A DNA stretch of 64,000 bases, taken from Rhodocyclaceae bacterium (GTDB lineage: Bacteria; Pseudomonadota; Gammaproteobacteria; Burkholderiales; Rhodocyclaceae). Under the pieces are notes generated by a model. The model was given only the letters and a program-made list of their open reading frames with translations, had not been told where the DNA came from and did no database searches. Location: assembly GCA_019455325.1 (NCBI GenBank), contig JACFMQ010000004.1, positions 186,001-250,000 on the forward strand, given 5' to 3'. Every line of letters begins with the position of its first letter. The stretch's first letter is position 1. Positions 2,803 to 36,973 of this stretch are shown one piece after another. A program made the position numbers and the translations under genes.

Positions 2803-2816
2803 ATCCTGATCTCCGT

Positions 2817-3056: not shown

Positions 3057-3091
3057 GCTGGATGTTTCCTCCGTTCAGGATGCGGGAGCTG

Positions 3092-4081: not shown

Positions 4082-4105
4082 GCTGGGTCACCTGGCCGGA
4101 GGGCG

Positions 4106-5104: not shown

Positions 5105-5129
5105 GGTGTCTGTCCTCGTTCAGGGCGTC

Positions 5130-6029: not shown

Positions 6030-6043
6030 GGGAGCGCTCCGGC

Positions 6044-7292: not shown

Positions 7293-7294
7293 GA

Positions 7295-9614: not shown

Positions 9615-9664
9615 AGTGCATTTCTCCCTATGGAAGCAGGAAGTGATCGCATCGCCTGGCTGGA

Positions 9665-10384: not shown

Positions 10385-10473
10385 GCTTCCTCCTTGCGTA
10401 TCCGATCATTGAAAGTCGGGTGGGCGGGAACGGCCAGCAGCTCATGCCCGGCGCCCTCCCCCCGGCATTCGGG

Positions 10474-12554: not shown

Positions 12555-12567
12555 GGTCACACCCCGA

Positions 12568-12898: not shown

Positions 12899-12918
12899 CT
12901 CCGGTCAGATTAAGCGCG

Positions 12919-15070: not shown

Positions 15071-15100
15071 CTCCTCACCTCCTTCTTGCGGGTTCATGGG

Positions 15101-19045: not shown

Positions 19046-19806
19046 CAGCCGGCCCCCACGCTCTGGCGGAAGGGCTCCATCAGCCGGAACCACAGGGCGC
19101 TCGACGCCAGCAGGTAGAGCAGCGCGGCGACGCCGGCCGCCGCGTACCAGGGCGTCAGCGGCGCCAGGCGCACGCCCTCGCCTTCGTCGAGCAGATGCTG
19201 CAGCGCCTGCGGGAAGGCCGGCCCCTGCGGCGGCGCGGCCGGATCGCGCGACACCACGCTGAACAGGCGCTCGCGCGTCTCCTTCAGCATGGCCTCTCCC
19301 TGCTCGCCGCGGTACTTCCCCTTGAAGCCGAGTTGCAGGGCGAGCACCATCACCGCCGCCAGATCGACGTGCAGCGCGTCGCGCTTGCGCGTCCCGAGCA
19401 GCTCGTCGGTGATGGCAAAGAAGCGCACGGCGGCGTTCCGCGAGCGGAACAGCCGGTGTTCGAGGAGCACGTCGAGCCAGGCCTCGCGCCCCGCCCACTC
19501 GATCTCCAGGACGAACAGCTCGTCGGCCAGCGCGGCCATGGCGTAGAGCGCCATGCGCTGCGCCTTCGCCTCGTCGGCGGTGCCGGTGCGCGCCACCGCC
19601 TGCCACTGCGCGCGCAGCAGGCCGGCCAGCCGCCCGCTGACGCGCGCGGCCAGATCGCCGGGCTCGCTGGGCGGCGCTTCGTCGCCGACGGTGAGCATGG
19701 CGGCGAGGCGGCCCTCGGCAATGGCCTGCTTGATGCCCGCCAGTTCTTCGAAGAACTCGGCGAAGCGCGCCAGCAGGAAGAAGGCGGGTTCGGCGCGTTC
19801 AGGCAT
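19045..19806 (-). CDS. tssL: T6SS inner-membrane protein TssL (DotU/IcmH family)
   Basis: A 253-residue protein with a cytoplasmic DotU domain (AFFLLARFAEFFEELAGIKQ near the N-terminus, ALADELFVLEIEWAGREAWL, LGFKGKYRG) and a single C-terminal membrane anchor at about 220-241 (YAAAGVAALLYLLASSALWF). It binds TssM and the baseplate. It has no C-terminal peptidoglycan-binding OmpA extension. It overlaps tssK by 8 bases at its start and tssM by one base at its end. Confidence 0.95.
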   Translation of the reverse strand: MPERAEPAFFLLARFAEFFEELAGIKQAIAEGRLAAMLTVGDEAPPSEPGDLAARVSGRLAGLLRAQWQAVARTGTADEAKAQRMALYAMAALADELFVLEIEWAGREAWLDVLLEHRLFRSRNAAVRFFAITDELLGTRKRDALHVDLAAVMVLALQLGFKGKYRGEQGEAMLKETRERLFSVVSRDPAAPPQGPAFPQALQHLLDEGEGVRLAPLTPWYAAAGVAALLYLLASSALWFRLMEPFRQSVGAG

Positions 19807-21238: not shown

Positions 21239-21718
21239 TCAGTGTCCGCTCACGGCGATGTCGTCCGGCTGCAGGCGCAGTTCGGCGCGCGCATAAGGGG
21301 TCAGGGTGATCGCCGGCCAGCCCGCCTCGCCCACGTAGTTGGCGAAGACGAGCACGGCCACGGCCTTGGCAACCCTGGCCGGCAGCTCGGCCTTGAACGC
21401 GGGATAGGCCGCCGGCACCTGCAGGGACTTCACCTCGATGTCGGCGGCCAGCGATTTCTGCAGCGCCTGGCGCTGGCGGAACCACTCCGGCCCGGTGCCC
21501 GGCAGCTTCGCCAGCGCCGCGTCGCTGTAGACCGCCACCACGTCGAGCTGCGTGGCGCTGCCGCCGTTGGCGGCCGGATCGGCCGACACCCGCAGCGTGC
21601 GCAGCGCGGCGTGCGCCGGGCCGAGGCCGATCAGCCCCTTCACCGAATCGATGGCGCTGCATCCGCCCAGCAGCGCCAGGCATCCCGACAGCATGAGCAC
21701 GAGCGCGCGGCCGGTCAT
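21239..21718 (-). CDS. tssJ: T6SS outer-membrane lipoprotein TssJ
   Basis: A 159-residue lipoprotein with signal peptide MTGRALVLMLSGCLALLGGC and a lipobox ending at Cys20. The mature part has TssJ/SciN features (LDVVAVYSDAALAKLPGTGP, then AVAVLVFANYVGEAGWPA). It anchors the TssLM complex to the outer membrane. Its ATG overlaps the stop of the DUF4150 gene (ATGA), tying the tip module to the membrane-complex genes in one transcript. Confidence 0.9.
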   Translation of the reverse strand: MTGRALVLMLSGCLALLGGCSAIDSVKGLIGLGPAHAALRTLRVSADPAANGGSATQLDVVAVYSDAALAKLPGTGPEWFRQRQALQKSLAADIEVKSLQVPAAYPAFKAELPARVAKAVAVLVFANYVGEAGWPAITLTPYARAELRLQPDDIAVSGH

Positions 21719-22092
21719 GAGAGGTAGATCACCTTGAACTGCCCCGGCGTCAGCGAGATGCCGACGCAGTTGGGCAGCAGGCCGTTCTGCCCGTTGATCG
21801 AGGTCAGGCGCGAAGCGAAGACGCAGCCCAGCGCCACCTTGAAGCTGCCCAGCAGCGAGCGCTTAGGGCCCATGCACATGCCCGAGGCGACGCCGACGCC
21901 GGCGTCGCCGGCGCTCAGCGCGCCGATGGTCAGGAGGTTCTCGGCCAGCCCGCCGCCCAGGATCACGTTGAACACCGTCGGCACGTTGCTCACCGAGAAG
22001 TCGAGATTGACCTGCGGCACCGGCACCGGGCCGACCATGCAGACGTCGGGAAAGCCGAGGTTGAGCACGCCGAGATTGTTGTTCACGAACAT
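21715..22092 (-). CDS. DUF4150 PAAR-like spike-tip protein
   Basis: A 125-residue protein starting MFVNNNLGVLNLGFPDVC and containing PVPVPQVNLDFSVSN and ASGMCMGPKRSLLGSFKV, the conserved pattern of DUF4150. DUF4150 is a PAAR-like domain that sharpens the VgrG spike and can carry effectors. Three Cys residues may contribute to metal binding at the tip. No toxin extension is fused to it. It is the only PAAR-type protein in the island, so it probably caps the spike. Confidence 0.85.
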   Translation of the reverse strand: MFVNNNLGVLNLGFPDVCMVGPVPVPQVNLDFSVSNVPTVFNVILGGGLAENLLTIGALSAGDAGVGVASGMCMGPKRSLLGSFKVALGCVFASRLTSINGQNGLLPNCVGISLTPGQFKVIYLS

Positions 22093-22096
22093 CGCC

Positions 22097-22648
22097 TCAC
22101 CCCATGCTGATGCGTTCTGCGTCGGCCTTGATGTCGCGCTCGGCCGTGAGCAGCGCATCCTGGGCGTGCAGCTTGAAGAGGTGGCGCACGTCGAGCAGGC
22201 AATGCCCGGCGCGGCCGATCAGATGGCGTGCCTGCTGGACGAGGCTTTCCGCCACCGTGACGAAAAGGTTGGGCGCCTGCAGCGTGAGACTGCCGGTGAG
22301 CGTCATCAGCCGCGCCTCGCCGGCGCTCACCAGCGCCAGGCTGTCGACGGCGTGCACGCTGACGTTCGCCTGGCGCAGCGCCAGGCTGCGGCAGGCCGGC
22401 ACGCTCAGCGCCGCCTCGGCGCCGCTGCGTTCGAGCACGTGCAGCACGTGGCAGGTCGCCCCCGCACTGCCGCCGACCAGCACCAGATCGCCGGTCTGCG
22501 GTTCGAGCAGGCAACTCGCCGCGCGGCGCGCCTGGCGGCCGTTCGCCAGCAGACAGGTGTCGGCGTCGAGCAGCATGGCCACGCGCGTCTCTTCGAGCTG
22601 CACGCGCTGCGCGCGGGCGCTCGCCGGGGCCGGGTTCACGGAATGCAT
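22097..22648 (-). CDS. DUF3540 T6SS-associated protein
   Basis: A 183-residue protein that matches the DUF3540 pattern (RVAMLLDADTCLLANGRQAR, GDLVLVGGSAGATCHVLHVL). The beta-rich C-terminal part has LTLTGSLTLQAPNLFVTVAE-like strands that may form a helical stalk. DUF3540 genes occur with DUF2169, pentapeptide and DUF4150 genes in T6SS loci and are thought to help load or build the spike tip. The start at 22648 overlaps the end of the pentapeptide gene by 13 bases. Confidence 0.8.
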   Translation of the reverse strand: MHSVNPAPASARAQRVQLEETRVAMLLDADTCLLANGRQARRAASCLLEPQTGDLVLVGGSAGATCHVLHVLERSGAEAALSVPACRSLALRQANVSVHAVDSLALVSAGEARLMTLTGSLTLQAPNLFVTVAESLVQQARHLIGRAGHCLLDVRHLFKLHAQDALLTAERDIKADAERISMG

Positions 22649-23730
22649 GGCAGATCCTCCAGATCGAGATTGGGGCGTTCGAGCGCCAGCAGGTCGGCGT
22701 CGGTGCCCTGCTGGCCGCGCCGCGAGGCGCCGCGCAGGCGCACGTCGTCCAGCGCGGCGCCGTGGAAGACGCAGCGGTCGAGCCGCGCGCCGGAAAGATC
22801 GCTGTCGCTCAGGCGGGCATGCGCGAAGCGCACGTCGGAAAAATCCGCGTCCGCCGCCCGCAGGCCGACCGCTTCGCTCTTCTCCCAACTGCCGCCGGCC
22901 AGGCGCGCGCCATCGAAGCGGCAGGCGCGCAGGCGCGCGTTGTAGAACATGGCGCGGGAAAAATCGGCGTCGCGCGCGTCGCACCCTTCCAGGCGCGCCG
23001 ACAGCAGCAGGGCGTCCGGCGCCTGCGTGCCGCGCAGGCGCGTCCCGGCGAAATGCGTCTGCATCAGGTTGCAGCCGGCGAGCACGGCGCCGGAAAGATC
23101 GCTGTCCGCGAAGCGTCCTTCCTGCAACTGGCACAGGTCGAAACGCAGGCTGCCCAGGGCCATGCCGCGCCAGTCGTTGTTCATCAGCGCGCTGCGCTGC
23201 GCGCGCAGGCCGGCCACGTCGGTGGTGCGCAGGTCGCTGTCGGTGAGCGCGGTCTGCGCCAGCGTGGCGCCGGCCAGCGACGCCTCGGCCAGATCGCAGC
23301 GCCAGAGCACCGCGCTGTCGAGCCTGGCGCCCGTTAGCGCGGCGCCGCGCAGGTCGCAGCCGGTGAGCGCCACGTGGCTCAGGCCCGCGCCCTGCGCCCG
23401 CACCGCCCGCAGGCTGCAGTCGACCAGGGCCGCCTGCGACAGGGCCGCCGCCTCCATGGCCGCAGCATCGAGCGCGCAGCGGATGAACTGGGTCTGCGCC
23501 AGCGCGGCGCCGGCGAAATTCGCGCCGGCCAGGCGGCAATCGATGAAGGTGGCGCGCGCCAGCGCGGTGCGCGAAAGGTCCATGCCGCCCAGCTCGCACT
23601 CGCGCAGCACGGCGTCGGCCAGCGACGCGCCGCGCAGGTCGATGCCGCGCAGGTCCGCCTTTTCCAGCGGCCGCCGGCGGCGGATGTGCCAGGCGATGGC
23701 GGCCGGATCGACGAGCGCCGGGGCCTTCAT
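22636..23730 (-). CDS. Pentapeptide-repeat protein of T6SS tip module
   Basis: A 364-residue protein formed almost wholly of A(D/N)LXX-type pentapeptides (ADLRGIDLRGASLADAVL, FADSDLSGAVLAGCNL), which fold into a right-handed quadrilateral beta-helix. A short non-repeat N-terminus (MKAPALVDPAAIAWHIRRRR) and an acidic C-terminus flank the helix. Pentapeptide proteins accompany DUF2169/DUF3540/DUF4150 in T6SS cargo modules; an adaptor or spike extension role is inferred. The ATG overlaps the stop of the DUF2169 gene (ATGA). Confidence 0.9.
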   Translation of the reverse strand: MKAPALVDPAAIAWHIRRRRPLEKADLRGIDLRGASLADAVLRECELGGMDLSRTALARATFIDCRLAGANFAGAALAQTQFIRCALDAAAMEAAALSQAALVDCSLRAVRAQGAGLSHVALTGCDLRGAALTGARLDSAVLWRCDLAEASLAGATLAQTALTDSDLRTTDVAGLRAQRSALMNNDWRGMALGSLRFDLCQLQEGRFADSDLSGAVLAGCNLMQTHFAGTRLRGTQAPDALLLSARLEGCDARDADFSRAMFYNARLRACRFDGARLAGGSWEKSEAVGLRAADADFSDVRFAHARLSDSDLSGARLDRCVFHGAALDDVRLRGASRRGQQGTDADLLALERPNLDLEDLPCIP

Positions 23731-26411
23731 GGCAGGCTCGCTTTCTCGTCGATGAGGGCGCGCGAACGGTTGGCGCCGCTGAAGTCGGCCTCGCTGGCGT
23801 CCATCTGCGCGAGCACGGCCTGGGTGAGCGTGGCCTGCGCGAAATCGGCCTTGCGGCACATCGCCTGGAAGAAGTCGGCGCGCGCCCCGCGCACGCGGCG
23901 CAGGCGGCTGCGGAAGAACAGCGAGCGATAGAGGCGCGCGCCTTCGAGATTGGCGTCCGACAGGTCGGCCTCGCCGAAGTCGCTCTGCGCGAAGGTTCCT
24001 GCGCCGAGATCGGCGCCGCGCAGATTGGCGCCGCGCAGGCCGCAGCGGCGCATCAGCGCGCCGCGCAGATTGGCGCCCTGCCAGTCGGCCTTGCCGCCGC
24101 CGTGCACACTGAGCAGTTCGGCGGCCGGCCACTGCGACGCGGCCAGCGTCGCGTCGAGCAGCACCGAGCGGGTGAGGCGCGCGGCGCCGAAATCCGCGCC
24201 GGCAAGCTGCGCGCCCTGCGCCACCACCTGCTGCCACTGCGCCTGCCGCCAGCGGCTGGCCGCCGCCTGCATGCCGACGAACACGGCGCGCGCGGCGCGG
24301 CTGTCGTCGAGTACCGCGCCGGTCAGATCGATGCGCAGGGCGAGCAGGTCATCGAGCAGCGCGCCGGCCAGGTTCGCCTCGCGCCACAGCGCGTCCATGG
24401 CCTGAGCGCCGCGCAGGCTGGCGGCGCCGAAGTCGGCGCCGGCCGCGCTGCTGCCGCTGAGGTTGGCGCCGTCGAGGCAGGCGTCGGCGAGCTGCGCGCC
24501 GTCGAGGCGGGCCGCGGTGAGCACGGCGCGGGCGAGGTTGGCGCCGCGCAGGTCCGCGCCGCGCAGGTCGGCCCGCTCCAGTTGCGTTTCGCGCAGATCG
24601 GCGCCGCGCAGATCCGCGCCGGCCAGATCGGCGCCGGCCAGATCGCGGCCGGCGAGCGCGACGCCTTCGCGCAGCCACTGCATCGCCTGCTGCCCCAGCG
24701 CGCTCGCCGCAGCGGCGGGCAGCGCCTCCGGCAGGGCGCCGGGCGTCGGCGCGGCGGCGCGGGCGGCGCGCTTCATGGACTGGGCCGCGCCGAGCGCCTG
24801 GGCGATCTGCGCGCGCTGTTCGGCGCCGACGCTGCCGGCCTGCGCCGCCTCGGCGCGATCGAGCGCCTCGGCCAGTCCGGCGGGCAGCGCCAGGTTCTGC
24901 GGCGCGACGAGGTCGGTGGCCTCTTCCTGGGCCCGGGCCAGCGCCTTGGCGGTCGCTTCTTCCGCAGTGGGCGCGGCCGGCGGCGGCGCATCCGGGAACT
25001 GCGCGCGCAGGGTCTGCCGCAGGCGTTCCTGCTCGGCGGCCAGCCGCGCCTCTCCCTCGGCGCGCACCTTCGCCGCCAGCGCCGTGGCCTGCGCCTGCAG
25101 TTCGGCCAGGTCGAATTCGCCTTCGGCCAGCGCATCGGCCGGGATGCCGGCGAACGCGGGCGGTTCGACGCGCGGCGGGACGTAGTCGGCCGGCGGCGTC
25201 AGCCCGCTCTGCGCCCAGAAGTCGGCCATCTGCTCGTCGAGCAGTTGCTGGCGCTCGGCCTGCTGCGCGGCGGCCTCGGCCTCGCGGCGCGCGGCGCGGG
25301 CGGCGATCTGCTCCGCGCTGCGCGGCGGCGCCAGTTGCGCTTCGTCGAAGGCGTGCAGCGCGGCCGTCGCCGGGTCGAGGCGCAGGCCGAACACCTCGCG
25401 GTAGTGGGCGAGCGGCCGCGTCTCGTCGAGTTTTTCGTAGGCCACCATCAGGGCCCGCACGTCGAGCGCGTCGCTGTCCGCTACCGGCGCTTCGCCGCGG
25501 AACACGAGCAGGCCGAGATCCTGATCCGGAAAGAACCAGACCGTGTCGCAGGCCAGCGCGATCTCTTCGGCCCCCTCTGCCCCCTCGGCGCCCTGCCCTT
25601 CGCGCAGCAGGAAGGCGCGCGCGCGCAGGCCCGGCAGCCGGCCGCGCAGCAGCGCATGCTGCGGGTGCAGACCTTCGAGGGTGTAAGGCTCGTCGCCGCG
25701 CAGCGCGCCGGCGAACTGCTGGTCGGCCGGCGCGCGGTTGAACAGGCCGAAGTCGAAATCGCGCGGCAGGCCGGGGAAATCCTCGGCCAGCCAGCGTTTG
25801 TCGTAGCTGCCGCTGGCGCGGCGCGCGCGCTCGGCGTGCAACAGCGGCTGCGGCGCGAAGCCGGCGGCCGGCAGCCGCTGGCGGCCCGGCATCACCGGCA
25901 GGCCGGGATACTCGACGTTGGGCATGGCGCCGGCGCGCGCGCGCAGCCAGGCGAAGCGCGGCAGGAAGGCGCGGCCCTGCGGGTTGTCGTGCCCGGCGCC
26001 GCCGTAGGCGCGCTCCCAGGTGAGCGGCATGTCCTTGAAGGGCACGGGTTCGTCCACGCAGACGGCGGGCCATGCGCGGCGCGTCCAGGCGCGCTCGCCG
26101 AGCACGTGCAGGCATTTGTCCACGGGGCCGCAGTGCAGGCGCACGCACAGGCAGGGCACCGGCGCGGCGGCATGGGCGCTGCCGCTGAGCAGCACCTCGC
26201 CGCGCGCCTTGGGCAGGATGTGGTCGAGCGGCAGGCCGGCGGGCAGCGCCGGCACCAGCTTGGCCCACTGCAGGTTGTCGGCGAGCAGCCGGTCGAGCGC
26301 GCCCTGGCCGAGCGGAAAGAAGCCCAACGCGGCGACGGCGAGACGATGCGCGCCGCGGTATCGGTAAGGCCGGTCGAGCACGCCGAGGGTGAGCGGTTTG
26401 ACGATCTTCAT
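23727..26411 (-). CDS. DUF2169 adaptor with C-terminal pentapeptide repeats
   Basis: An 894-residue two-part protein. Residues 1-350 match DUF2169 (YRYRGAHRLAVAALGFFPLG at the start, PLTWERAYGGAGHDNPQGRA). DUF2169 proteins act as chaperone/adaptors for loading effectors or PAAR-like tips on VgrG. Residues about 360-600 are an Ala/Glu/Arg-rich helical linker (REAEAAAQQAERQQLLDEQM). Residues about 610-890 are pentapeptide repeats (GRDLAGADLAGADLRGADLR). It follows vgrG by 7 bases. Two consecutive pentapeptide proteins in one module is notable. Confidence 0.9.
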   Translation of the reverse strand: MKIVKPLTLGVLDRPYRYRGAHRLAVAALGFFPLGQGALDRLLADNLQWAKLVPALPAGLPLDHILPKARGEVLLSGSAHAAAPVPCLCVRLHCGPVDKCLHVLGERAWTRRAWPAVCVDEPVPFKDMPLTWERAYGGAGHDNPQGRAFLPRFAWLRARAGAMPNVEYPGLPVMPGRQRLPAAGFAPQPLLHAERARRASGSYDKRWLAEDFPGLPRDFDFGLFNRAPADQQFAGALRGDEPYTLEGLHPQHALLRGRLPGLRARAFLLREGQGAEGAEGAEEIALACDTVWFFPDQDLGLLVFRGEAPVADSDALDVRALMVAYEKLDETRPLAHYREVFGLRLDPATAALHAFDEAQLAPPRSAEQIAARAARREAEAAAQQAERQQLLDEQMADFWAQSGLTPPADYVPPRVEPPAFAGIPADALAEGEFDLAELQAQATALAAKVRAEGEARLAAEQERLRQTLRAQFPDAPPPAAPTAEEATAKALARAQEEATDLVAPQNLALPAGLAEALDRAEAAQAGSVGAEQRAQIAQALGAAQSMKRAARAAAPTPGALPEALPAAAASALGQQAMQWLREGVALAGRDLAGADLAGADLRGADLRETQLERADLRGADLRGANLARAVLTAARLDGAQLADACLDGANLSGSSAAGADFGAASLRGAQAMDALWREANLAGALLDDLLALRIDLTGAVLDDSRAARAVFVGMQAAASRWRQAQWQQVVAQGAQLAGADFGAARLTRSVLLDATLAASQWPAAELLSVHGGGKADWQGANLRGALMRRCGLRGANLRGADLGAGTFAQSDFGEADLSDANLEGARLYRSLFFRSRLRRVRGARADFFQAMCRKADFAQATLTQAVLAQMDASEADFSGANRSRALIDEKASLP

Positions 26412-26418
26412 GGCCGGC

Positions 26419-29001
26419 TCACACCACCAGCATGATGACGGGAATCTGGATCGACGGCCCGCTGATGTCGATCCCCACGGTGCTCCCCTTGACCGACAGG
26501 GTGAGGCCCGAACCGAGCACCTCGATGCGCGTCGACGCGCCGGTGACCTCGACCGAGGTGCTGTTGCCGACGACGTTCACATTGTTGCTGTTGCCGGTGA
26601 CGCTGACGCCGCTGTGGCTGCCGGTGATGTTGGCCGAGAGCGCCACGCCGGTGAGCGAGGCGCTGTTCACGCTGCCCGACAGGCTCAGGTCGACGGAGGC
26701 GCCGAGCAGCGCATTGACGTTGCGCACGCCGGTGGCGGAATTGCTGTTGCTGACGCCGACGGCGTCGTTGCTGTTGCTCGCGCCGATCGCCGAGGAACTG
26801 CTCTGCGCGCCGATCGCCGTGAAGTTGTGGACGATCGCATGCGTGCTGCGGTTGGTCGCCGTGCCGGTGATCGTGGAACTGTTCTCCGAATCGCCGTAGA
26901 TCTCCGAGACGCTGCCGACCTTGCCGTGATGCTCGCTGCGGCTGGCGACGCCGCCGTGGAAGGTGCTGACGCTCTTGGTCGCACCGTACGCCACGCTGCT
27001 GCTGTAGGAATCGCCATAGACCACGCTCTTGCTCGCCTGCACGGCAGCCAGCGCCTCGGCATCGCTCTGCTCGCTGCTGGCGAGCGAAGGATCGCACTTG
27101 CCGGTGACCGATTCGTGATAGCTGCGCCCGGTGGCCGAAAAGCTCTTGCTCTCCTTGCCCCAGGCATAGCTGTAGTTCGAGCCGTAGGCCCAGGATTCGC
27201 CGAGCATGCCCTGCTCCTTCTGCTCGGACTCGGAATAGCTGTAGTTGCCGCCGCGCGAATAGCCCGCATCGCGGAACACGCCGCGCGCATAGGCTTTCTC
27301 GACGAGCGCCGCGGCGGCATCGACGGCGCCGCGCGACCAGGGCTGGCCGAAGCGGATGCTGCGGCCGTCGCCGAAGCTGGTGGAGTAGCTGTTGCCGATC
27401 TGGCTGTGCGCCGTCCAGCCCGAGTCGGTGACGGTCCTGCTGCCGTCGACCTGCACCATGTTCTGGATTTCCGGCAGTTCCGATTCGTCGTTGGCGCGCG
27501 TCACCCAGACGTTGCTGCCGACCTCCGGCATCGTCTGCATGTGCGCGGCGAGCTTCACCCACACCGGCGGCGCATCGCGCGTATCGGTGGAGAAGCGCAC
27601 GTAAACGCCCTTGGCGCGCAGCTCCGCGTACACGCCCTGGGTGTCGGTCAGGGTTTCGGAGGCGCCGCTGAAATCGTCGGGCACGTAGTAGGGCCAGTCG
27701 CGCACGGCGTCGTCGCCGTCGGCGGTGGTCACGGTGGCCAGCACCACGCCTTGCTGGGTGTCCTGCAGGCTGGCGCTGGCGATGAGGCCGCCGGCCACGG
27801 TGGCGCTGAACTGGTTCTGGTATTCGCCGTCGAGCGTCGAGCTGTGCTGCACCTGGGTGAGCACGAAGGCGCGGCCGTCGAGTTCGGGGCGCACGCCGGG
27901 CGGCATGGCCGCCATGCCGAAGCGGTGGCCGGCGCGCAGGAAGGGGCAGCGGCTGGCGCCGTCGAGCCGCAGGTCGGCGCTGGACATGGCCTGATCGGTG
28001 GTCTGCGCGTAGTCGCGCACTTCGCCGTCGCAGTAGCCGTACTGCACGATCTTGTACTGGTGGAAGGGCAGTTCGCCGACGTCGGGCCGGCTGTCGGCGC
28101 GAAAGCTGGCGTGGCTGGCGAGCGGTTCGGCCGGCTGGCGCACGTCCCAGGCCTCGCGCTGCAGCGTGAAGACGCCGCGCACGCCGGTGCTGCCCATCGA
28201 CTGCCGGTAGGTGTATTGGGTGATGACGTCCGCTTCGTGCAGGCCGAGTTCGTCCTCGTCGGTGAAGGTGTAGCGCAGCGGTTCGTCGCCGGGACGCGCG
28301 GCGGGATAGCCGGGGCGGTTGGCGAAGACCATGCAGTGGCCGTCGGCGCGATGCTCGAAGTAGAAGAAGATGTGCGCCCGGCTCATCAGGCGGTGCATCA
28401 GGTCCATGTCGGATTCGCCGGCCTGCATCCAGTCCTGGGTGCGCGCGGAGGCGACGTTGTCCTCGCCCGCCAGGCCGTCGAAGTTCGCCTCCACGCGGTG
28501 CTCGCGGCACAGCGTGGCAAGCGCCTCGCGGATGTTCAGGTGGCGCAGGATGCGATAGCGGTTGGTGAGCGTCATGCGCCAGGCCATCGGCCGCATGGTG
28601 ATGTGGTAGACGCCGGGCCGGTCGATGGCGAAGCTGGCGACGATGCCGTTGAACAATGCGAAGGAGCGCGCCTCGCCGCTGCCGTCGAGCGCCTTGAGGA
28701 AGGCCTGGTGGGCGAGCTTGCGGTCCTCGAACTGCACGCCGGCGACGCCGACCGTGATCGGCCGGCCGATGATCTGCGAGAGGTCGATGGTTTCGCCCGC
28801 CGGATCGGTGTCGCCGTGCAGTTCGAGCTGGTACTCGAAGAGGTCGGAGACGCTTTCCTGCCCCTGGAAGCTGACCAGGCGGAAGACGTTCTCGCCGACC
28901 ACCGCGCCGTGCGGCATCTCGATGCAGCAGTGCTGGAACAGTAGCGGCTGATCGCGCAGGGCGATCCGGGTGGCGGCGGCGGGTTCGAGCGGCGCGTTCA
29001 T
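26419..29001 (-). CDS. vgrG: T6SS spike protein VgrG with Ser/Asn-rich C-terminal stalk
   Basis: An 860-residue protein. Residues 1-450 are the gp27/gp44-like head (LVSFQGQESVSDLFEYQLEL, WMQAGESDMDLMHRLMSRAH). Residues about 450-560 are the gp5 OB-fold region (GVYVRFSTDTRDAPPVWVKL, VWVTRANDESELPEIQNMV). The remaining 300 residues are a low-complexity Ser/Asn/Tyr/Gly-rich region with many degenerate repeats (YGDSYSSSVAYGATKSVST), ending in alternating beta strands (SVTGNSNNVNVVGNSTSVEV). They presumably form an elongated beta-prism needle rather than a catalytic domain. It is the only vgrG in the island and overlaps tssG by 4 bases. Confidence 0.95.
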   Translation of the reverse strand: MNAPLEPAAATRIALRDQPLLFQHCCIEMPHGAVVGENVFRLVSFQGQESVSDLFEYQLELHGDTDPAGETIDLSQIIGRPITVGVAGVQFEDRKLAHQAFLKALDGSGEARSFALFNGIVASFAIDRPGVYHITMRPMAWRMTLTNRYRILRHLNIREALATLCREHRVEANFDGLAGEDNVASARTQDWMQAGESDMDLMHRLMSRAHIFFYFEHRADGHCMVFANRPGYPAARPGDEPLRYTFTDEDELGLHEADVITQYTYRQSMGSTGVRGVFTLQREAWDVRQPAEPLASHASFRADSRPDVGELPFHQYKIVQYGYCDGEVRDYAQTTDQAMSSADLRLDGASRCPFLRAGHRFGMAAMPPGVRPELDGRAFVLTQVQHSSTLDGEYQNQFSATVAGGLIASASLQDTQQGVVLATVTTADGDDAVRDWPYYVPDDFSGASETLTDTQGVYAELRAKGVYVRFSTDTRDAPPVWVKLAAHMQTMPEVGSNVWVTRANDESELPEIQNMVQVDGSRTVTDSGWTAHSQIGNSYSTSFGDGRSIRFGQPWSRGAVDAAAALVEKAYARGVFRDAGYSRGGNYSYSESEQKEQGMLGESWAYGSNYSYAWGKESKSFSATGRSYHESVTGKCDPSLASSEQSDAEALAAVQASKSVVYGDSYSSSVAYGATKSVSTFHGGVASRSEHHGKVGSVSEIYGDSENSSTITGTATNRSTHAIVHNFTAIGAQSSSSAIGASNSNDAVGVSNSNSATGVRNVNALLGASVDLSLSGSVNSASLTGVALSANITGSHSGVSVTGNSNNVNVVGNSTSVEVTGASTRIEVLGSGLTLSVKGSTVGIDISGPSIQIPVIMLVV

Positions 29002-30083
29002 GCGGTCTCCATCCGTGGTTCATGGGCGCTGACGCGAAAACGCAGCGGCGCCACGGCCTGCCCCCCCAGCCAGGCGGTCTGGCCGAGGCGCAGCCCGAGG
29101 CTTGCGCCGTCGCTGACGAGCCGCGCGGGCGGCACGGTGCCGGGGACGACGTGCAGACACACCTCGCAATCGAAGCGGCGATCGAGCAGCAGGCGCAGCA
29201 TCGCCACCAGGCCGCGATGCGCGGGGCCAGGCAATTCCTCGCCCGGGCGCGCCGGACGCAGCGGCAGCAGGGCGCAGGCGGCGGCGTAGGGCAGCGCATC
29301 GACGACCAGGCGCACGGCGGCGTGCGCGTCCCAGGTGCGGCGGCCGAGCAGGCTGTCGTGGCCGAGCGCATGGCTGCGCCGGCCCAGCGCGAGGCGGTCG
29401 GAGGCCTCGATGTCGCGCCAGCCGCCGAGCAGGGGTTCGAGCCGCGCGGCCACGCCCAGATAGGCGGAGAGCACCTGGCCGACGACGATGGCGCTCTTGC
29501 GCACGTTCGCCAGCAGGCCGGCGATCCCCAGCCAGGTGCGCATCGGCAGCGGCATCTGCGCCTGCTGCGCCGGCAGCGCCAGGCCCATCAGCGCGGCAAG
29601 CTGGCCGGCGTGGCGCGTGTCGGCCGGTTCGGCCGGATCGAGCGCGCGCAGCGCGCGGATCTTCAGCTCGTGGCGCAGCACGTGCACGCGCTGGTTGAAC
29701 ACGTCGAGGAAGGCCGCCATGGCGCGCCCGCCCATGCGTTCCTGCTCGCGCACCCATTCGAGGAAGGGTTCGGGCAGCGGGCCCAGCTCGCTCGCCAGGC
29801 AGTAGTTCGGCGTGCGCACCTCGATGCGCGCCGGCATCTCCTGCGCGTACCGGACCTCGCTGCGGAAGGCCGGCATCGCGCGCGTGCCGGCCAGCCGCGT
29901 CACCTCGCGCCCGGGAAAGGCGGCGCGCAGGTCGGCGCGAAAGCGCAGGCGCTGGCCGATCGGCCAGGCGCCGTCGCGCCGGTGGCGCAGCAGGCGCACC
30001 AGTTGGAACACGTCGAAGCGGGCGTACTGCTCGCCCAGCACGCGGTTCAGAGCAGGACCTGGTTGCCCGCCAACGGTGGCCAT
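28998..30083 (-). CDS. tssG: T6SS baseplate protein TssG
   Basis: A 361-residue baseplate wedge protein. Family marks include YARFDVFQLVRLLRHR near the N-terminus and, in the C-terminal half, VRKSAIVVGQVLSAYLGVAA and LGRRSHALGHDSLLGRRTWD. I keep the ATG at 30083, preceded by GAAGGA, which overlaps the tssF 3' end by 37 bases; a later GTG near 30040 is an alternative. It works with TssF, TssE and TssK in the baseplate. Confidence 0.9.
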   Translation of the reverse strand: MATVGGQPGPALNRVLGEQYARFDVFQLVRLLRHRRDGAWPIGQRLRFRADLRAAFPGREVTRLAGTRAMPAFRSEVRYAQEMPARIEVRTPNYCLASELGPLPEPFLEWVREQERMGGRAMAAFLDVFNQRVHVLRHELKIRALRALDPAEPADTRHAGQLAALMGLALPAQQAQMPLPMRTWLGIAGLLANVRKSAIVVGQVLSAYLGVAARLEPLLGGWRDIEASDRLALGRRSHALGHDSLLGRRTWDAHAAVRLVVDALPYAAACALLPLRPARPGEELPGPAHRGLVAMLRLLLDRRFDCEVCLHVVPGTVPPARLVSDGASLGLRLGQTAWLGGQAVAPLRFRVSAHEPRMETA

Positions 30084-31861
30084 TCCTTCACCACTCCTTT
30101 CACGTCAGGCATGCGCAGGCGAAGCTGCACGACGGTGTTCACGCTGGCATACAGCGTGAAGAAATGCCGCAGCACGGCGGCGAACAGCACGGCGCTGGTC
30201 TCCTCGAAACGGTGGTGATCCAGGGTCAGGTCGATCTCGCAGCCCTGCACGTAGCCGCGCCGCCCCATGCGGCCGTGCCAGCGCACCAGCGGCCGCGAGT
30301 CGAGCGCGCGGATGCCGTCGATGGCGCGATGGCCGAGCGTGCTGGCCGGCCCGACGTGCATGCGCAGGATGTCCTTGAGCGCGGCCAGCGCCTTCGGGCC
30401 GTCGGCCAGCGACAGGTGGTTGAGGGCGAGCTGCGAGGCCAGCAGCCAGGGGCGGGCGCCGGTCATCGGCGGCGTCTGGTGCGCGGTCGGCTTGCCGAGC
30501 ACGCGCAGGGCGTTCACCGGCGCCGCGCCCTCGATCTGCAGCTCGTCGCCGACGCGCAGGCGTTCGGGCATGCGGCGGTTGGTGCACAGCGCGCTGCCGC
30601 CGACCACGTCGTCGGCGGGATCGGTCAGCTCGAAGCGCGCGTCGAGGAAGGACACGTAGATCTCGGTGCCGCCGATGCGCGCGCGCTGGCTCGCTTCGCG
30701 GCGCGTGAAATAGAAGTAGTCCTGCAGCTCGATCTGCTGGAAGGCGTCCATCGAGAAATACGGCACCAGCGTGCGCGGCGCCGCGCCGGCGCGCACGGCG
30801 TCGAGGCGCTCGACGCGGTAGATCTCGCAGTTGGCGTGCTGGGTGGCGTCGCCGGTGAGCCGGTATTCGTAGCGGCTGTGGTCGAGCGTCAGCGGGTCGA
30901 TGCGCTGGCTGTAGAGGTTGATCAGCGGCACGCAGTTCGTGCGCAGCATCGCCGGCGCCAGGCGCAGGCCCGGATCGGGCGGCACGTCGAGCAGGAAGAG
31001 CAGGTCGACGGCCGGCGCATCGCTGCGGATGTCCAGCGCGGCGACGTCGAAGAACAGGAATTTCTCGGGGAAGGCGAAGTATTCCTGCAGGATGCGGAAG
31101 GCCGGATGGGCCTGCGGCAGGGCGGGCAGCGCCGCCTCGTCGTCGGCGAAGCCGACCCAGCGCAGCGATTCGCCGGCCAGGCGGTGGACGCTGCCGGCGT
31201 CGTCCTCGCCGATCTCCGCCACCGCCAGCCCGCGCAGGTGGACGCCGAGCAGATGCTGCAGGCGATGCGCCGGGCCGGCTTCCGGATTCAGATGGAAACG
31301 CAGGTTCTTCGGCTGCATCCGGTCGAGCGGCGTGCGCCCCTGCTTGAACAGGCGCGCCCTGATGATGCCGCGCACCTCGTCGTCGGCGGCCAGTTCGGGA
31401 TAATCGTCCGGCGACACGATCGCCAGCTCGCCGACCCGCAGCGGCCACAGCGCGGTCTCGAAGCAGGTGCGGAAGCGGCAGGCGAGCGCGCCGCCGCGGT
31501 CGCCCCGGACGCTGGCCCGCACGTTGCGGCCGCGCTCGATCACGGCCATGCCGTCCGGCTGCACTTCGAACTCGGCCACCAGCATGCAGGGCAGCGGCGC
31601 TTCGAGGTGCGGGTAGAGGTCGGCGAGCAGCGCATTCGGCAGCTCCGCCTGGTCGACCTCCAACTGGTGGCGCAGGCGGCCGGTGAGATAGGCGAAGGAC
31701 TGCATCAGCAGATCGACCTGCGGGTCCTGCGAGCGGCCGCGGTGGATGCCCAGCGCCTGCGCCTGTTCGGGATGGTCGTTGGCGAATTCGCTGGCCTCGT
31801 CGCGCAGCGCGGCGAGTTCCTGCCGGTAGAAATCCTTGAGGCGGTCGGAGCTGCCGTACAT
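30047..31861 (-). CDS. tssF: T6SS baseplate protein TssF
   Basis: A 604-residue protein beginning MYGSSDRLKDFYRQELAALR with EFANDHPEQAQALGIHRGRS and DPQVDLLMQSFAYLTGRLRH close behind, the canonical TssF N-terminus. TssF is the scaffold of the baseplate wedge with TssG and TssE. Length is normal, and the gene starts 15 bases after the tssE stop. Confidence 0.95.
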   Translation of the reverse strand: MYGSSDRLKDFYRQELAALRDEASEFANDHPEQAQALGIHRGRSQDPQVDLLMQSFAYLTGRLRHQLEVDQAELPNALLADLYPHLEAPLPCMLVAEFEVQPDGMAVIERGRNVRASVRGDRGGALACRFRTCFETALWPLRVGELAIVSPDDYPELAADDEVRGIIRARLFKQGRTPLDRMQPKNLRFHLNPEAGPAHRLQHLLGVHLRGLAVAEIGEDDAGSVHRLAGESLRWVGFADDEAALPALPQAHPAFRILQEYFAFPEKFLFFDVAALDIRSDAPAVDLLFLLDVPPDPGLRLAPAMLRTNCVPLINLYSQRIDPLTLDHSRYEYRLTGDATQHANCEIYRVERLDAVRAGAAPRTLVPYFSMDAFQQIELQDYFYFTRREASQRARIGGTEIYVSFLDARFELTDPADDVVGGSALCTNRRMPERLRVGDELQIEGAAPVNALRVLGKPTAHQTPPMTGARPWLLASQLALNHLSLADGPKALAALKDILRMHVGPASTLGHRAIDGIRALDSRPLVRWHGRMGRRGYVQGCEIDLTLDHHRFEETSAVLFAAVLRHFFTLYASVNTVVQLRLRMPDVKGVVKEWPPLAGNQVLL

Positions 31862-31876: not shown

Positions 31877-32263
31877 TCAGACCGGCGCCGCCAGGCGCAC
31901 GTCGCGCGCCTGCTCGTCGCCGGGAAACAGGGCGCTGACCACCAGGCAGAACGGGCAGCCCGCCGGCGCGTTCGGCTGCGGGTCGGTTTCGACCGTGACG
32001 CGCACGTTCTTCAGGCGCGGCTCGTGGCGCGCGATGGCCTCGGCGAGGCGCTGCGCCAGCGCTTCGAGCTGCACCGAGGCGGCATGCCCGATCTCGACCG
32101 GGCTGCGCACGCCCCAGGGCACGACGGCGATCGCCTCGCCGGCGTGGCGCGCCGTGGCGAGGAGGCGCTGCACCTGCGCGAGGACGGCCGCCTCCTCGTC
32201 GAAGGGCTCCGGCCGGCCGTCGAGGCCGGGCGGACGCACGCTGAGTCGTTCGAACAGAAACAC
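31877..32263 (-). CDS. tssE: T6SS baseplate protein TssE (gp25-like)
   Basis: A 128-residue gp25/lysozyme-like baseplate protein. I chose the GTG at 32263 (VFLFERLSVRP) because GGGAGAG precedes it by 6 bases; the frame is open further upstream without coding character. The family pattern IRxNLxxLLNTR is replaced by VQRLLATARHAGEAIAVVPW, and EPRLKNVRVTVE matches the conserved EPRL strand. It starts sheath assembly at the baseplate. Confidence 0.85.
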   Translation of the reverse strand: MFLFERLSVRPPGLDGRPEPFDEEAAVLAQVQRLLATARHAGEAIAVVPWGVRSPVEIGHAASVQLEALAQRLAEAIARHEPRLKNVRVTVETDPQPNAPAGCPFCLVVSALFPGDEQARDVRLAAPV

Positions 32264-32324
32264 GCTTGACTCTCCCGTCCGCGGCCGCGCGACGCCCCGG
32301 CGGGCGGGCGCGGCCACGGAGCGA

Positions 32325-32876
32325 TCAGGTGAAGTTGCCGATCGGACGGTTGTGCATGATGCTCCAGCCGCTGCGGATGCTGCCGGGACGCGAGACATCG
32401 ACGTCCTGGGTGGTGAAGGTCCACAGAATCTCGGTGAAGTTGATCTTGAACTGCTCCGTCGGCATGTCGTCCGGGTGCGACTGGAACTGGATCTCGCTGA
32501 TGATCGCGTCGCGCAGCTCCATGGTGATGATGTTCGCCGTCTTGTCGCCGGAGTTGCGCGCGATGTAGATCTTCGTCGGATTGTCCTTGCCGACGCCCAG
32601 CGGCGCCGCGCGCAGGCAGTAGTCGTAGAGCTTCACCGAGGTCTGGTCGACGTACTTCACGCAGGTGAACTCGGTGATCACCGGCCGGCCCGAGGTGCGC
32701 GCCTTGTTGCTCACGTCGGTGGTGATCTGCTGCTTCATGCCGTGGTGGATGGAGACCAGCTCCAGGCACTTGCCGAACTGCAGGTTGTCGTCGCGCCATT
32801 CGGCGTCGATGTGGGTCGAGCTGGTCTCGCCGATGATGTCGTCGGCGTTGCCGGGCTGCAGGAGAATCAGGTCCAT
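32325..32876 (-). CDS. hcp: T6SS inner-tube protein Hcp (TssD)
   Basis: A 183-residue tube protein. Family features are GKCLELVSIHHGMKQQIT at the N-side, RPVITEFTCVKYVDQTS, and the C-terminal EILWTFTTQDVD. Hexameric rings form the secreted tube and can carry small effectors. It is slightly longer than the usual 160-172 residues. It is 30 bases downstream of the tssB-tssC fusion gene and first in line before tssE. Confidence 0.95.
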   Translation of the reverse strand: MDLILLQPGNADDIIGETSSTHIDAEWRDDNLQFGKCLELVSIHHGMKQQITTDVSNKARTSGRPVITEFTCVKYVDQTSVKLYDYCLRAAPLGVGKDNPTKIYIARNSGDKTANIITMELRDAIISEIQFQSHPDDMPTEQFKINFTEILWTFTTQDVDVSRPGSIRSGWSIMHNRPIGNFT

Positions 32877-32906: not shown

Positions 32907-34838
32907 TCAGGCGGGCAGATCGGCGACGAGGCGGATCGAGGCCGTCAGCTCTTCGAGCTGGAAGTGCGGCTTGAGGAACACGGTCGCCCGGTAGGCGCCC
33001 GGCTCCCCCGGCACGTCGACGACGACGATCGACGCCTCGCGCAGCGGAAAGGCGGACTTGACGTCCTGCGAGGCGTTGTCGTCGAGCAGCACGTACTGCG
33101 AGATCCAGGCGTTGAGAAAGGTCTCGACGTTGGCGCGCGTCAGGAAGCCGCCCACCTTCTCGCGCACGATCACCTTGATGTAGTGGGCGAAGCGCGACGC
33201 GGCGAGGATGTAGGGCAGGCGCGACGACAGCGCGGCGTTGGCGTTGGCGTCGGCGTTGATGTAGCGCTTCGGCCGGTTGGTGGTCTGGCCGCCGAAGAAG
33301 GCCGCCTTGCCGCTGCCCTTGCAGTGGCACAGGGCGATGAAGCCGAGGTCGTTCAGCTCCTTCTCGCGGCGGTCGGTGATCGCCACCTCGGTCGGGCAGA
33401 ACAGTTCCTTGATGCCGTCGTCGCCGCCGCTGGCGAAGGTATAGATGGGCAGCCCCTCGACCAGGCCGCCGCCCTGGACGCCGCGGATCGCCGCCGTCCA
33501 GCTGTAGAGCGAGAAGGCGTTGGTGATCCGCTCGGCGAGGAAGTAGGCGGCGTTGCCCCAGAGGAAATGATCGTTCTCGGGCACGTTGCCGGCGGCGAGG
33601 ACCTGCTCCTCGAAGTCGAAGCCGTCGGCCGGCAGGGTCTTCTCGCCGTACGGCAGGCGCAGCAGCACGCGCGGCATGACCAGCGAGACGTAGCGCGAGT
33701 CCTCGGTGTCGCGGAATTCCATCCACTTGGTCAGGTCGGCCCCCTCGAAGATCTTCGCCAGGTCGCGCGGCTTGGCCAGGTCGGCGTAGCCCTTGAGGCC
33801 GAACATCTCCGGCGAGGCCGCCGACAGGAAGGGCGCGTGCGCGGCGGCGGCCACCCCGGAAATCTTCTCCAGGAAGCTCATGTTGGGCGCGCCCGGGCCG
33901 AGCTCGTAGCCGCCGAGCAGCAGGCTGTAGGGCGAACCGCCGTAGGTGCCGTACTCGGCTTCGTAGATCAGCTTGAAGAGCTTGCTCTGGTCGAATTCGA
34001 CCGCCTTGTCCATGTCGTCCTGAAGCTCCTTCAGGGTGGCGTTGAACACGCGCAGCTTCAGTCGGGTGCCGGTTTCGCTGCGCGACACCAGATGGAAGAG
34101 GCCGCGCCACGTGGCCTCCATTTCCTTGAAGCGCGGCGCGTGCATGACGGCGGAGAGCTGCGCGCTCAGCGCGCTATCGATCGCCCGCACGGCGAAGTCG
34201 ATCGACAGCGCCGCGCCACGGCCCTTGCCGCCCGGCGCGGTGATCACCGGGACGACGTGCTTCTCGAAGGCGGCGGCGAGGCCGGTCTTGAAGCCATCGT
34301 CCTTTTCCGGAAAACCTTCCGCGAGCTTGCCGGCGAGTTCCTCCGACCACGCCGACGCTTCCTCCACGCCGGCGGTCGCCGCTTCCAGCGCCTGCGCGGC
34401 GACGTCGCTGATTTCCGCGCGCGCCTGCGCATCCCGCAGCAGCTTGCGCTGCTGGAACACCTCATCGAGCGCGCCGACCTTGTCGACCACGCGGATCGGA
34501 TCGAAATCGCTCAGGCTCTCGAACACGATGGCGCCATTGAGCTTGCCCGTGCCGCCCGGCAGGACGTTGTCGACGTCCTTTAGGGCGACGCGCGGCGCGC
34601 TCTGCTTGAGCACCTCGTTGAAGCTGTCGCGGTCGATGTCGACCATCTTGCGTTCCTTGATGTCGGGAGGAACCGCCGGATCGGCGTCCGGATCGCGGTC
34701 GCCGCTCAGGTCGGCGAAGATGCCGACGATGAAGGGCAGCTCGCGCTTCTCGATGGCTCCATTGGTATGCACGTCGTAGGTGATCCGCACACGCGGCGGC
34801 CGCACCCGCAACAGCTTCTTCTGCACGCTTTCACTCAT
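32907..34838 (-). CDS. tssBC: T6SS contractile sheath protein, TssB-TssC fusion
   Basis: A 643-residue single chain that joins the two sheath subunits. Residues 1-140 are TssB: VQKKLLRVRPPRVRITYDV, LPFIVGIFADLSGD, KMVDIDRDSFNEVL. Residues about 195-643 are TssC: SIDFAVRAIDSALSAQLSAV, FKEMEATWRGLFHLVS, RVLLRLPYGEKT, LPYILAASRFAHYIKVIVRE. The 50-residue junction (DVAAQALEAATAGVEEASAW...) replaces the TssB C-terminus and the TssC N-terminus. It holds no Met between residues 64 and 232, so no separate TssC start is present. GAGG lies 7 bases before the ATG. It is the first gene after the sigma-54-like promoter. Confidence 0.9.
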   Translation of the reverse strand: MSESVQKKLLRVRPPRVRITYDVHTNGAIEKRELPFIVGIFADLSGDRDPDADPAVPPDIKERKMVDIDRDSFNEVLKQSAPRVALKDVDNVLPGGTGKLNGAIVFESLSDFDPIRVVDKVGALDEVFQQRKLLRDAQARAEISDVAAQALEAATAGVEEASAWSEELAGKLAEGFPEKDDGFKTGLAAAFEKHVVPVITAPGGKGRGAALSIDFAVRAIDSALSAQLSAVMHAPRFKEMEATWRGLFHLVSRSETGTRLKLRVFNATLKELQDDMDKAVEFDQSKLFKLIYEAEYGTYGGSPYSLLLGGYELGPGAPNMSFLEKISGVAAAAHAPFLSAASPEMFGLKGYADLAKPRDLAKIFEGADLTKWMEFRDTEDSRYVSLVMPRVLLRLPYGEKTLPADGFDFEEQVLAAGNVPENDHFLWGNAAYFLAERITNAFSLYSWTAAIRGVQGGGLVEGLPIYTFASGGDDGIKELFCPTEVAITDRREKELNDLGFIALCHCKGSGKAAFFGGQTTNRPKRYINADANANAALSSRLPYILAASRFAHYIKVIVREKVGGFLTRANVETFLNAWISQYVLLDDNASQDVKSAFPLREASIVVVDVPGEPGAYRATVFLKPHFQLEELTASIRLVADLPA

Positions 34839-34976: not shown

Positions 34977-34992
34977 ATCAATTCCCGTGCCA
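34977..34992 (-). promoter_or_regulatory. Sigma-54-type promoter before tssBC
   Basis: The minus strand reads TGGCACGGGAATTGAT, preceded by C. It matches the consensus YTGGCACGRNNNTTGCW at all but one position (TTGAT in place of TTGCW at the -12 element). It lies about 140 bases upstream of the tssBC ATG, and a sigma-54 activator is encoded 750 bases further upstream. The -12 mismatch may weaken it. Confidence 0.65.
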
Positions 34993-35737: not shown

Positions 35738-36739
35738 CTATGCCGCGGCGCCGTCGTCCTCGTGGCCGATGCCGTACTTGCGCACCAGCTTGCCGAAGGC
35801 GCTGCGATCCTGGCGGGCCAGGCGTGCGGCGCGCGAGATGTTGCCGTCGGCGCGCGAGAGCATGGCGAACACGTAACTGCGCTCGAACTCGGCCACGGCC
35901 CGCGCCTTCGCCTCGCGGAAAGCCGGCAGCTCCCCCTTGCCGGCATCGCTCGGCCGCATCGCGGACGCGGGCATCAGCTCGGCGCGCGACTCGGCCAGGC
36001 GCAGCTCGCTTTCTTCGCACAGCAGGAATTCCCGATGCATCACGTTTTCAAGCTCGCGCACGTTGCCGGGCCACGGGTAGCGCTCGATGAAATCCCGCCC
36101 CTCGGCATGCAGCCGCTTGAGCGGCAGCCGGTACTGGTGGCTGAAGCGCTGCAGCATGGCGCGCGCCAGCACCTCCGCGTCCCCCTCCCGCTCGCGCAGG
36201 GGCGGCATGTGCAGGGTGATGACGTTCAGGCGGTAGAGCAGGTCCTTGCGGAACAGGCGCGCCTCCGCCAGGCACCGCAGGTCGGCGTTGCTCGCCACCG
36301 CCACCCGCACGTCCACCTGGCGCAGGGTGCCGCCGCCGACGCGGCGATAGGTGCGATCCTGCAGGAAACGCAGCAGGGCCGCCTGCGCCCTGGGGCTCAG
36401 GGTATCGACCTCGTCTAGGAACAGGGTGCCGCCGGCCGCCTCGCCGATCAGGCCGGCGGAGGCGTTCTTCGCATCGGTGAAGGCGCCGCGTTCATGGCCG
36501 AACAGCTCGCTCTCCACCAGCGATTCCGAGAGCGCCCCGCAATTCACAGGGACGAAGGGGCGATCGGAGCGGGCGCTGAGATAGTGGATCGCGCGCACCG
36601 CCAGCTCCTTGCCGGTGCCGGTCTCGCCATTGACCAGCACGGTCGCGTCGAGGCGCGCCATGCTGTGTATCTGGGCGACGGTCTTCTGGAACTGGGGAGA
36701 CGAACCGATCAGATTGAAGCGCGACAGACCTTCCATCAT
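35738..36739 (-). CDS. Sigma-54-dependent transcriptional activator lacking a sensor domain
   Basis: A 333-residue bacterial enhancer-binding protein. It consists of an AAA+ domain from near residue 10 (NLIGSSPQFQKTVAQI; Walker A GETGTGKE; Walker B GGTLFLDEVD; sensor RFRKDLLYRLN-type LFRKDLLYRLNV) and a C-terminal Fis-type helix-turn-helix (DGNISRAARLARQDRSAFGK). There is no N-terminal receiver, GAF or PAS domain. The sigma-54 contact loop reads GAFTDA in place of the consensus GAFTGA. The start at 36739 (MMEGLSRF) follows GGGAG; a longer frame exists upstream but looks non-coding. Position suggests it activates the T6SS promoter at 34977-34992. Confidence 0.85.
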   Translation of the reverse strand: MMEGLSRFNLIGSSPQFQKTVAQIHSMARLDATVLVNGETGTGKELAVRAIHYLSARSDRPFVPVNCGALSESLVESELFGHERGAFTDAKNASAGLIGEAAGGTLFLDEVDTLSPRAQAALLRFLQDRTYRRVGGGTLRQVDVRVAVASNADLRCLAEARLFRKDLLYRLNVITLHMPPLREREGDAEVLARAMLQRFSHQYRLPLKRLHAEGRDFIERYPWPGNVRELENVMHREFLLCEESELRLAESRAELMPASAMRPSDAGKGELPAFREAKARAVAEFERSYVFAMLSRADGNISRAARLARQDRSAFGKLVRKYGIGHEDDGAAA

Positions 36740-36973
36740 TGCTCCCTTCAGGGCGAATCCCGGGGCTGCGTGCATCCCTTCCGGCAGACCGGCGGGCGCC
36801 CGCCGGGCCTGGCGGCACGCCGGCGGGTTTCCATATGGCATTCGACGTCAAAGCGAGCAGTAAAGGACAAGCCGGCGGCGACGTCAACCATTCCAATGGA
36901 TTAATGTCGTTCCGGTAGGCTGCGGTGGCAGCGCATCTTCGGGCGGTCGGGGCGCCGCGGCCGCCGTCCCGCC

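Follow-up and report, generated by a model that had tools for sequence, protein, structure and literature searches.

A natural single-chain TssB–TssC sheath protein in a type VI secretion system in which no ClpV was detected

Type VI secretion systems (T6SSs) are usually described as reusable weapons because ClpV resets the sheath after use. In the canonical systems the sheath is made from two genes and two chains, TssB and TssC (VipA and VipB), a ClpV is present and, in most classes, TssC carries an N-terminal helix of the LLDxII type, according to the available portion of PMC4239648. Excerpts of this source and of PMC5048182 describe the binding of ClpV to this helix, which reads LLDEII in VipB; for HsiC1 of P. 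aeruginosa the helix is described as not required for ClpV1 binding (PMC4239648). Other T6SSs are reported without this component, as far as the available text of each source goes: the Campylobacter jejuni cluster contains no tssH (PMC6927950), T6SS-1 of Azoarcus olearius is tssH-less and expressed, with no secretion seen (PMC6423157), neither of these two texts mentions a fusion, and further systems without ClpV are on record (PMC9048695). In Francisella, which also has no ClpV, ClpB colocalises with contracted sheaths, whose disassembly depends on it (PMC5481754, in part). A fused sheath protein has one clear published precedent in the open-licence PMC literature, the roseobacter TssCL, an apparent TssB–TssC fusion of 1,684 amino acids found beside intact tssB and tssC (excerpts of PMC9515649), whereas the original prediction had named no described natural fusion. 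The available part of PMC2660368 mentions no TssB–TssC fusion, and no report of a T6SS with a fusion as its only sheath gene, or of a link between such a fusion and the absence of ClpV, was found in the open-licence PMC literature.

The locus presented here lies in a window of 64,000 nucleotides from a member of the Rhodocyclaceae (contig JACFMQ010000004.1). It shares both sheath domains, the fold and the remaining machinery with the canonical systems, and it differs from them in its single gene and chain, its ClpV content and its TssC N-terminus. Like TssCL, the window protein naturally combines VipA and VipB domains in one chain, but TssCL has two VipA domains and is accompanied by separate tssB and tssC in the published excerpts, whereas the window protein has one VipA domain and is the only sheath gene found. 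The IglA/IglB system of Francisella resembles that of the window in being without ClpV; its sheath, however, consists of two proteins (3j9o chains A and B) and not of one chain, and it is for Francisella that the available text documents the role of ClpB. The sheaths of phages, R-pyocins and extracellular injection systems are single chains with a common sheath fold, as is also seen in the model predicted for the window protein, but sequence identity is only about 10% and the window protein sits in a T6SS cluster and is a TssBC protein by its sequence.

The fused sheath gene and its island

The sheath gene is one uninterrupted frame of 643 codons, from ATG to TGA, that reads from 34838 to 32907 on the minus strand, which bears out a prediction made with no strand given; the plus-strand reading of this interval contains a stop. 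The encoded protein is matched by Pfam T6SS_VipA (E-value 2e-31), VipB (7e-114) and VipB_2 (8e-43), and both NCBIfam models, TssB and TssC, score above their cut-offs. Of the complete TssB and TssC signatures claimed at the outset, both domains are indeed present, but the NCBIfam TssC alignment begins at model position 47 of 473, and the predicted TssC half is not quite complete, the N-terminal part that normally binds ClpV being absent.

No internal methionine had been noticed near the junction, and this holds, since the first in-frame ATG after residue 120 is codon 232. A separate TssC made from an internal start was considered and rejected: no Shine–Dalgarno-like word was found by a word-list scan in the 20 nt preceding GTG codons 127, 158, 198 and 217 or ATG 232, and ATG 240, which does have such a word upstream, sits within the TssC core, leaving no candidate with a word of this kind ahead of the core. 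That the frame is two genes run together by a sequencing or assembly error, the event on which the prediction might have foundered, has a negligible probability, because the same fusion is present in independent genomes, at 88% identity in Pseudothauera nasutitermitis, at 81%, and at 64% in another genus of the same family. These copies rule out such a join together with the coding signature, which is continuous over the linker (third-position GC of 0.85–0.93 over the junction, with codon-position GC coding-like throughout). The window genome comprises 4.46 Mb in 31 contigs and is 100% complete with 2.03% contamination; no second sheath gene was found in it beyond the fused one.

The surrounding island is a T6SS by its sheath, its tube, baseplate and spike (Hcp, TssE, TssF, TssG, TssK, VgrG and TssA) and its membrane complex (TssJ, TssL and TssM), and its predicted boundaries, trpE and trpG, are confirmed (Table 1). 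Set against the 13 genes that we take to be the usual T6SS core, it misses tssH only. The absence of tssH from the island, which had been claimed from the window, extends to the whole window genome, where no match to the ClpV model TIGR03345 exceeds the cut-off of 884.95 bits; the top match, at 829.6 bits, is ClpB (TIGR03346, 1433 bits; cut-off 1232). ClpV in related genomes with canonical systems scores 1233–1306 bits, and on these scores the two proteins are well separated. A ClpV hidden elsewhere in the window genome was thus considered and not found by the whole-genome profile search.

Table 1. Predicted features of the T6SS island and the fused sheath gene, in window coordinates.
Feature	Position	Strand	Basis or remark
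trpG	96-668		island boundary
TssA	13949..15097	(-)	family match
TssM (IcmF)	15101..19045	(-)	Pfam IcmF-related_N; NCBIfam below cut-off
TssL (DotU)	19045..19806	(-)	family match
TssK	19799..21226	(-)	family match
TssJ-like lipoprotein	21239..21718	(-)	lipobox, place, and weak matches beside TssK in split loci; no family match
PAAR-like tip protein	21715..22092	(-)	Pfam Tox-PAAR-like
DUF3540 protein	22100..22597	(-)	approximate ends
Pentapeptide-repeat protein	22636..23739	(-)	approximate start
DUF2169 and pentapeptide-repeat protein	23727..26411	(-)	Pfam
VgrG (TssI)	26419..29001	(-)	Pfam Phage_GPD; NCBIfam VgrG below cut-off
TssG	28998..30083	(-)	Pfam
TssF	30047..31861	(-)	Pfam
TssE (gp25-like)	31877..32398	(-)	Pfam GPW_gp25; NCBIfam below cut-off; real start probably 3' of ORF start
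Hcp (TssD)	32325..32876	(-)	Pfam T6SS_HCP above cut-off; NCBIfam below cut-off
TssB–TssC sheath protein, single-chain, 643 aa	32907..34838	(-)	Pfam VipA, VipB, VipB_2; NCBIfam TssB and TssC above cut-off
TssC gp25-like domain (PF18945), residues 531-641	32916..33248	(-)	Pfam
TssC N-terminal sheath domain (PF05943), residues 216-520	33279..34193	(-)	Pfam
Inter-half linker, about residues 141-215	34194..34418	(-)	predicted helical; without LLDxII-type ClpV-binding motif
TssB (VipA) domain, residues 11-156	34371..34808	(-)	Pfam T6SS_VipA
Sigma-54-like promoter box TGGCACGGGAATTG	34979..34992	(-)	154 nt upstream of fused gene start codon
Sigma-54-dependent activator (bEBP)	35738..36841	(-)	Pfam Sigma54_activat
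trpE	37010-38497		island boundary

The longest ORF over tssM (15101-19606) begins 187 codons early and crosses tssL in another frame, and a mechanical ORF call there would over-lengthen TssM and mask tssL (19045-19806). Between trpG and tssA (1762-13923) lie several proteins with GNAT domains, together with others of lower GC for which Pfam gave no match; this interval, seemingly a variable cargo or effector/immunity region, is shorter in P. nasutitermitis. The latter organism (Zoogloeaceae) has the same island flanked by trpE and trpG, its compared T6SS genes being 74–92% identical to those of the window. No match to the fused sheath was found in six other members of the window genus (two of them 65–74% complete), which points to horizontal transfer of the system. 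No Rfam family reaches its gathering score in the window.

Fused relatives and the occurrence of ClpV

Relatives were collected by a scan of named genome contigs with patterns in the TssB N-terminus, and the best 80 of 499, ranked by similarity to the fusion, were read as stop-to-stop frames, on which all fused and split calls rest. The 49 fused and 31 split loci among these 80 reflect that ranking and are distinct from population frequencies. Open-frame length suggested additional fusions, for example in G040, G051 and G056, where the DNA shows split genes, and a plasmid locus of Paraburkholderia phymatum, fused by coverage, turned out on reading to be split with a ClpV ORF nearby. The hosts of fused loci include Lysobacteraceae, Rhodanobacteraceae, Rhodocyclaceae, Chitinibacteraceae, Oxalobacteraceae, Burkholderiaceae and Zooshikella, as well as two Holosporaceae and two metagenome-assembled genomes (MAGs), one from SAR324 and one from Desulfobacterales. 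An even draw across the phylum took in 398 genomes; a TssC match was present in 88 of them, and at least four of the 30 loci read are fused (the window, L112, L113 and L117), a lower bound. Among 297 genomes of the family the corresponding figure is 86, with six fused-type by coverage: the window genome, G030, G670, G574, G584 and G738, the last four of which appear from their coordinates to be the genomes of L031, L030, L033 and L076.

The linkers of the fused proteins range from 57 to 377 residues. Those of ten loci from Rhodanobacteraceae and Herbaspirillum (L060, L061, L069, L074, L077, L078, L079, L080, L082 and L083) are about 200–220 residues long and very rich in alanine, and perhaps form a long coiled coil projecting from the sheath; linkers of about 370 residues occur in Rhodoferax (L058) and an Oxalobacteraceae MAG (L092).

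A tree of the TssC core (126 rows, quick method), from which L007 and L108 (same locus as L036) as well as L024 and L025 were excluded, groups 48 of the 53 fused rows into a single clade with an SH-aLRT of 100; the second TssC rows of G086 and G090 are pieces of one frame. In a tree of TssB and TssC together, made by a careful method from 64 rows chosen from the 126, a single clade (100/99) takes in 31 of the 36 fused rows, the two Holosporaceae and L066 form a separate fused clade (100/99), and fused L084 and L117 are single rows that are long or weakly placed. Constraining all fused rows to one group is borderline rejected (p-AU 0.049). As judged from these sequences, the fusion is a conserved lineage and likely arose at least twice.

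A search for further fusions accompanied by loss of ClpV had been proposed, and it succeeded on both counts: beside the fused majority of the best 80 relatives, none of the 37 genomes in which a fused TssC is the sole TssC found has a ClpV above the family cut-off. These 37 consist of 35 of the 50 genomes formed by the 49 fused-locus genomes and that of the window, plus G110 and G169. By comparison, ClpV exceeds the cut-off in 27 of 31 genomes reached through split loci, the partial ClpV of G513 (locus L085) being counted among the misses. It also does so in 13 of the 49 fused-locus genomes, all 13 of which carry a split TssC as well. Of the 17 ClpV copies in these genomes, 15 share a contig with the split TssC and are no more than 20 kb away from it; the remaining two (G067 and G069) sit on other contigs than the split TssC. 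G317 has one ClpV, no more than about 10 kb from its split TssC. Two further genomes with an extra split TssC beside the fused one were scored as not above cut-off, G068 with a partial ClpV at a contig edge and G081 with a match of 776 bits 9 kb from its split TssC. Within flanks of up to 10 kb, often ended by the contig, no ClpV ORF was found at any of the 49 fused loci, whereas 21 of the 31 split loci have one. Scoring took in the best 15 or fewer of up to 32 candidates per genome in the 49 fused-locus genomes, at most 19 per split-locus genome and at most three per even-draw genome; a ClpV missed in fused genomes, many of which are MAGs, is possible in principle.

The original prediction held that the fusion and the absence of ClpV fit together, and they do so in one direction, as the fused-only genomes show, but the reverse fails. 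Split systems without ClpV above cut-off were found in G448, G452, G504, G519 and G524, and one of the two split systems of G032 has no ClpV of its own; loss of ClpV therefore does not need fusion. The G032 system (G032:C1:1504934, L011) belongs to the window's family, and the one ClpV above cut-off in that genome adjoins the other system (4.35 Mb); the case resembles the tssH-less T6SS-1 of A. olearius. G448 (L115) and G452 (L120) are small genomes of 1.4 and 1.2 Mb with split TssB and TssC and no ClpV above cut-off. Both are placed near the Holosporaceae fused group, on weak branches, which suggests that loss of ClpV can precede fusion. An independent-pairs test of fusion against ClpV (coding L085 as 'ClpV present', fused rows as 'absent' by rule, and L114, L116 and L128 as stateless) yields 1 to 4 pairs, too few for power. 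The association of fusion with absence of ClpV is strong but comes from few independent events.

Docking helix, predicted structure and sigma-54 control

Ahead of the TssC core, an LLDxII-like motif is carried by 55 of the 74 split rows, where shuffling predicts 4.5; among the fused rows the count is 10 of 53 against a predicted 3.3, a slight excess over chance. As for the TssC-core tree, L007 and L108 were left out of this count and of both sigma-54 counts given below. When read by eye, the ten fused matches fall in the TssB tail, in the linker interior or at the core start, while several motif-less split rows represent a class with a different N-terminus. In the early fused branches the segment after the helix is retained and the helix itself is altered, again as read by eye. 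The TssC N-terminus had been described as buried in a fusion linker; it does lie inside the chain, but in the fused proteins the putative ClpV-docking helix has been lost or altered and not only buried.

The structure predicted for the fused protein from 35 sequences has a mean pLDDT of 77.5, and its linker is predicted to be helical (pLDDT 88–94 over residues 141–210). The model matches T6SS sheath chains in structure comparison, and its residues 34..535, covering both halves, match a single-chain contractile-injection-system sheath at 3.4 Å over 234 residues, a resemblance of fold that is no indication of function. In VIA-align, used as a second look at listed folds, model residues from 167 on superpose on VipB residues from 17 on, and the place may thus still be filled by a helix.

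Upstream of the fused genes, the pattern TGGCA[CT]N5TTG is found within 400 nt in 35 of 52 cases, against 0 of 74 TssB frames of split loci (frames, not loci), with about 0.2 expected by shuffling in either set, the strength of this contrast being partly fitted because the pattern was relaxed after the window's copy was known. One fused row was dropped for short upstream DNA. A stricter sigma-54 pattern matches upstream of 5 of the 52 fused genes and 4 of the 74 split-locus frames. A homologue of the window activator, a comparison in which any sigma-54 activator would match, is present in the flanks of 27 of 49 fused loci and none of 31 split loci.

Fate of the contracted sheath

We consider it probable that the island encodes a complete T6SS which works without ClpV on a single-chain TssB–TssC sheath, and that the contracted sheath is most likely used once. 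At the level of sequence, a conserved fusion and the absence of ClpV are established. That the fused sheath is not recycled by ClpV is the most likely reading and follows almost directly. Each protomer of the sheath would be supplied folded and in one piece, like those of phage tails and extracellular contractile systems. With ClpV absent and the docking helix at the TssC N-terminus gone, there would be no dedicated unfoldase to grip the sheath after firing, and once contracted it would be left in place or slowly cleared by housekeeping chaperones or proteases. Sigma-54 control, with an activator encoded nearby, would suit a weapon assembled when needed and not cycled.

The fused sheath might instead be recycled by the general chaperone ClpB, acting on another exposed segment, perhaps the linker itself, an explanation that we find plausible but rather doubtful. 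It has the precedent of Francisella in its favour (PMC5481754, available portion), and ClpB is present in the window genome; 41 of the 49 fused genomes have a near-full-length match of 760–875 bits to the ClpV model, the score range of ClpB, a figure that rests on that range and may include a ClpV in G081. ClpB is common in any case (above cut-off in 8 of 14 control genomes), and its presence accordingly proves little. It is missing or fragmentary in six fused MAGs (G064, G077, G083, G088, G094 and G099), which is indistinguishable from incompleteness. Evidence against ClpB comes from the chromosome records, of about 0.6 Mb each, of Candidatus Nesciobacter abundans (G095) and Candidatus Cytomitobacter indipagum (G097), which have fused sheaths (L067 and L071) but no ClpB that could be found, although both belong to the second fused group and not to that of the window. 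They have no ClpV match at 1e-150, and the ClpB model, which elsewhere also detects ClpA at about 400 bits, gives weak AAA matches of 16–22 bits only, so that no Hsp100 unfoldase (ClpV, ClpB or ClpA) was found in either. The T6SS of their lineage is termed probably non-standard in the available text of a review (PMC11909080).

Fusion and loss of ClpV could also be two traits of one old lineage that are functionally unlinked, the fusion merely fixing stoichiometry. The single clade that holds nearly all fused TssC-core rows, with independent origins amounting at most to a few, and the split sheaths that are also without ClpV are what such a coincidence would produce; we nevertheless regard it as unlikely, since the ClpV-docking helix appears lost or altered in the fused proteins and the second, apparently separate fused group is also without ClpV above cut-off. 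Decay of the system, with fusion as part of it, is very improbable. The six congeners without a match, some of them incomplete, indicate that the system is dispensable, and the T6SS-1 of the related A. olearius is expressed with no secretion seen in the accessible part of PMC6423157, but long intact frames persist in 49 loci from several phyla and the T6SS genes remain closely similar between the two genera that share the trpE–trpG island.

Beyond single use of the window's sheath, a wider reading, which we put forward tentatively as an even chance would overstate it, is that a widespread T6SS lineage reverted to a phage-like, one-piece, single-use sheath: ClpV and the docking helix would have been given up, TssB and TssC fused, and building placed on demand under sigma-54, with some protist endosymbionts retaining no Hsp100 unfoldase at all. 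A conserved one-piece sheath without ClpV and its docking helix would allow the value of recycling to be tested directly in nature, and the fused lineage may be seen as a natural bridge between the two-chain sheaths of T6SSs and the single-chain sheaths of phages. A sheath of one chain should also be convenient for structural work. Together, these observations suggest a largely overlooked type of T6SS, one in which the sheath is not reset by the usual route.
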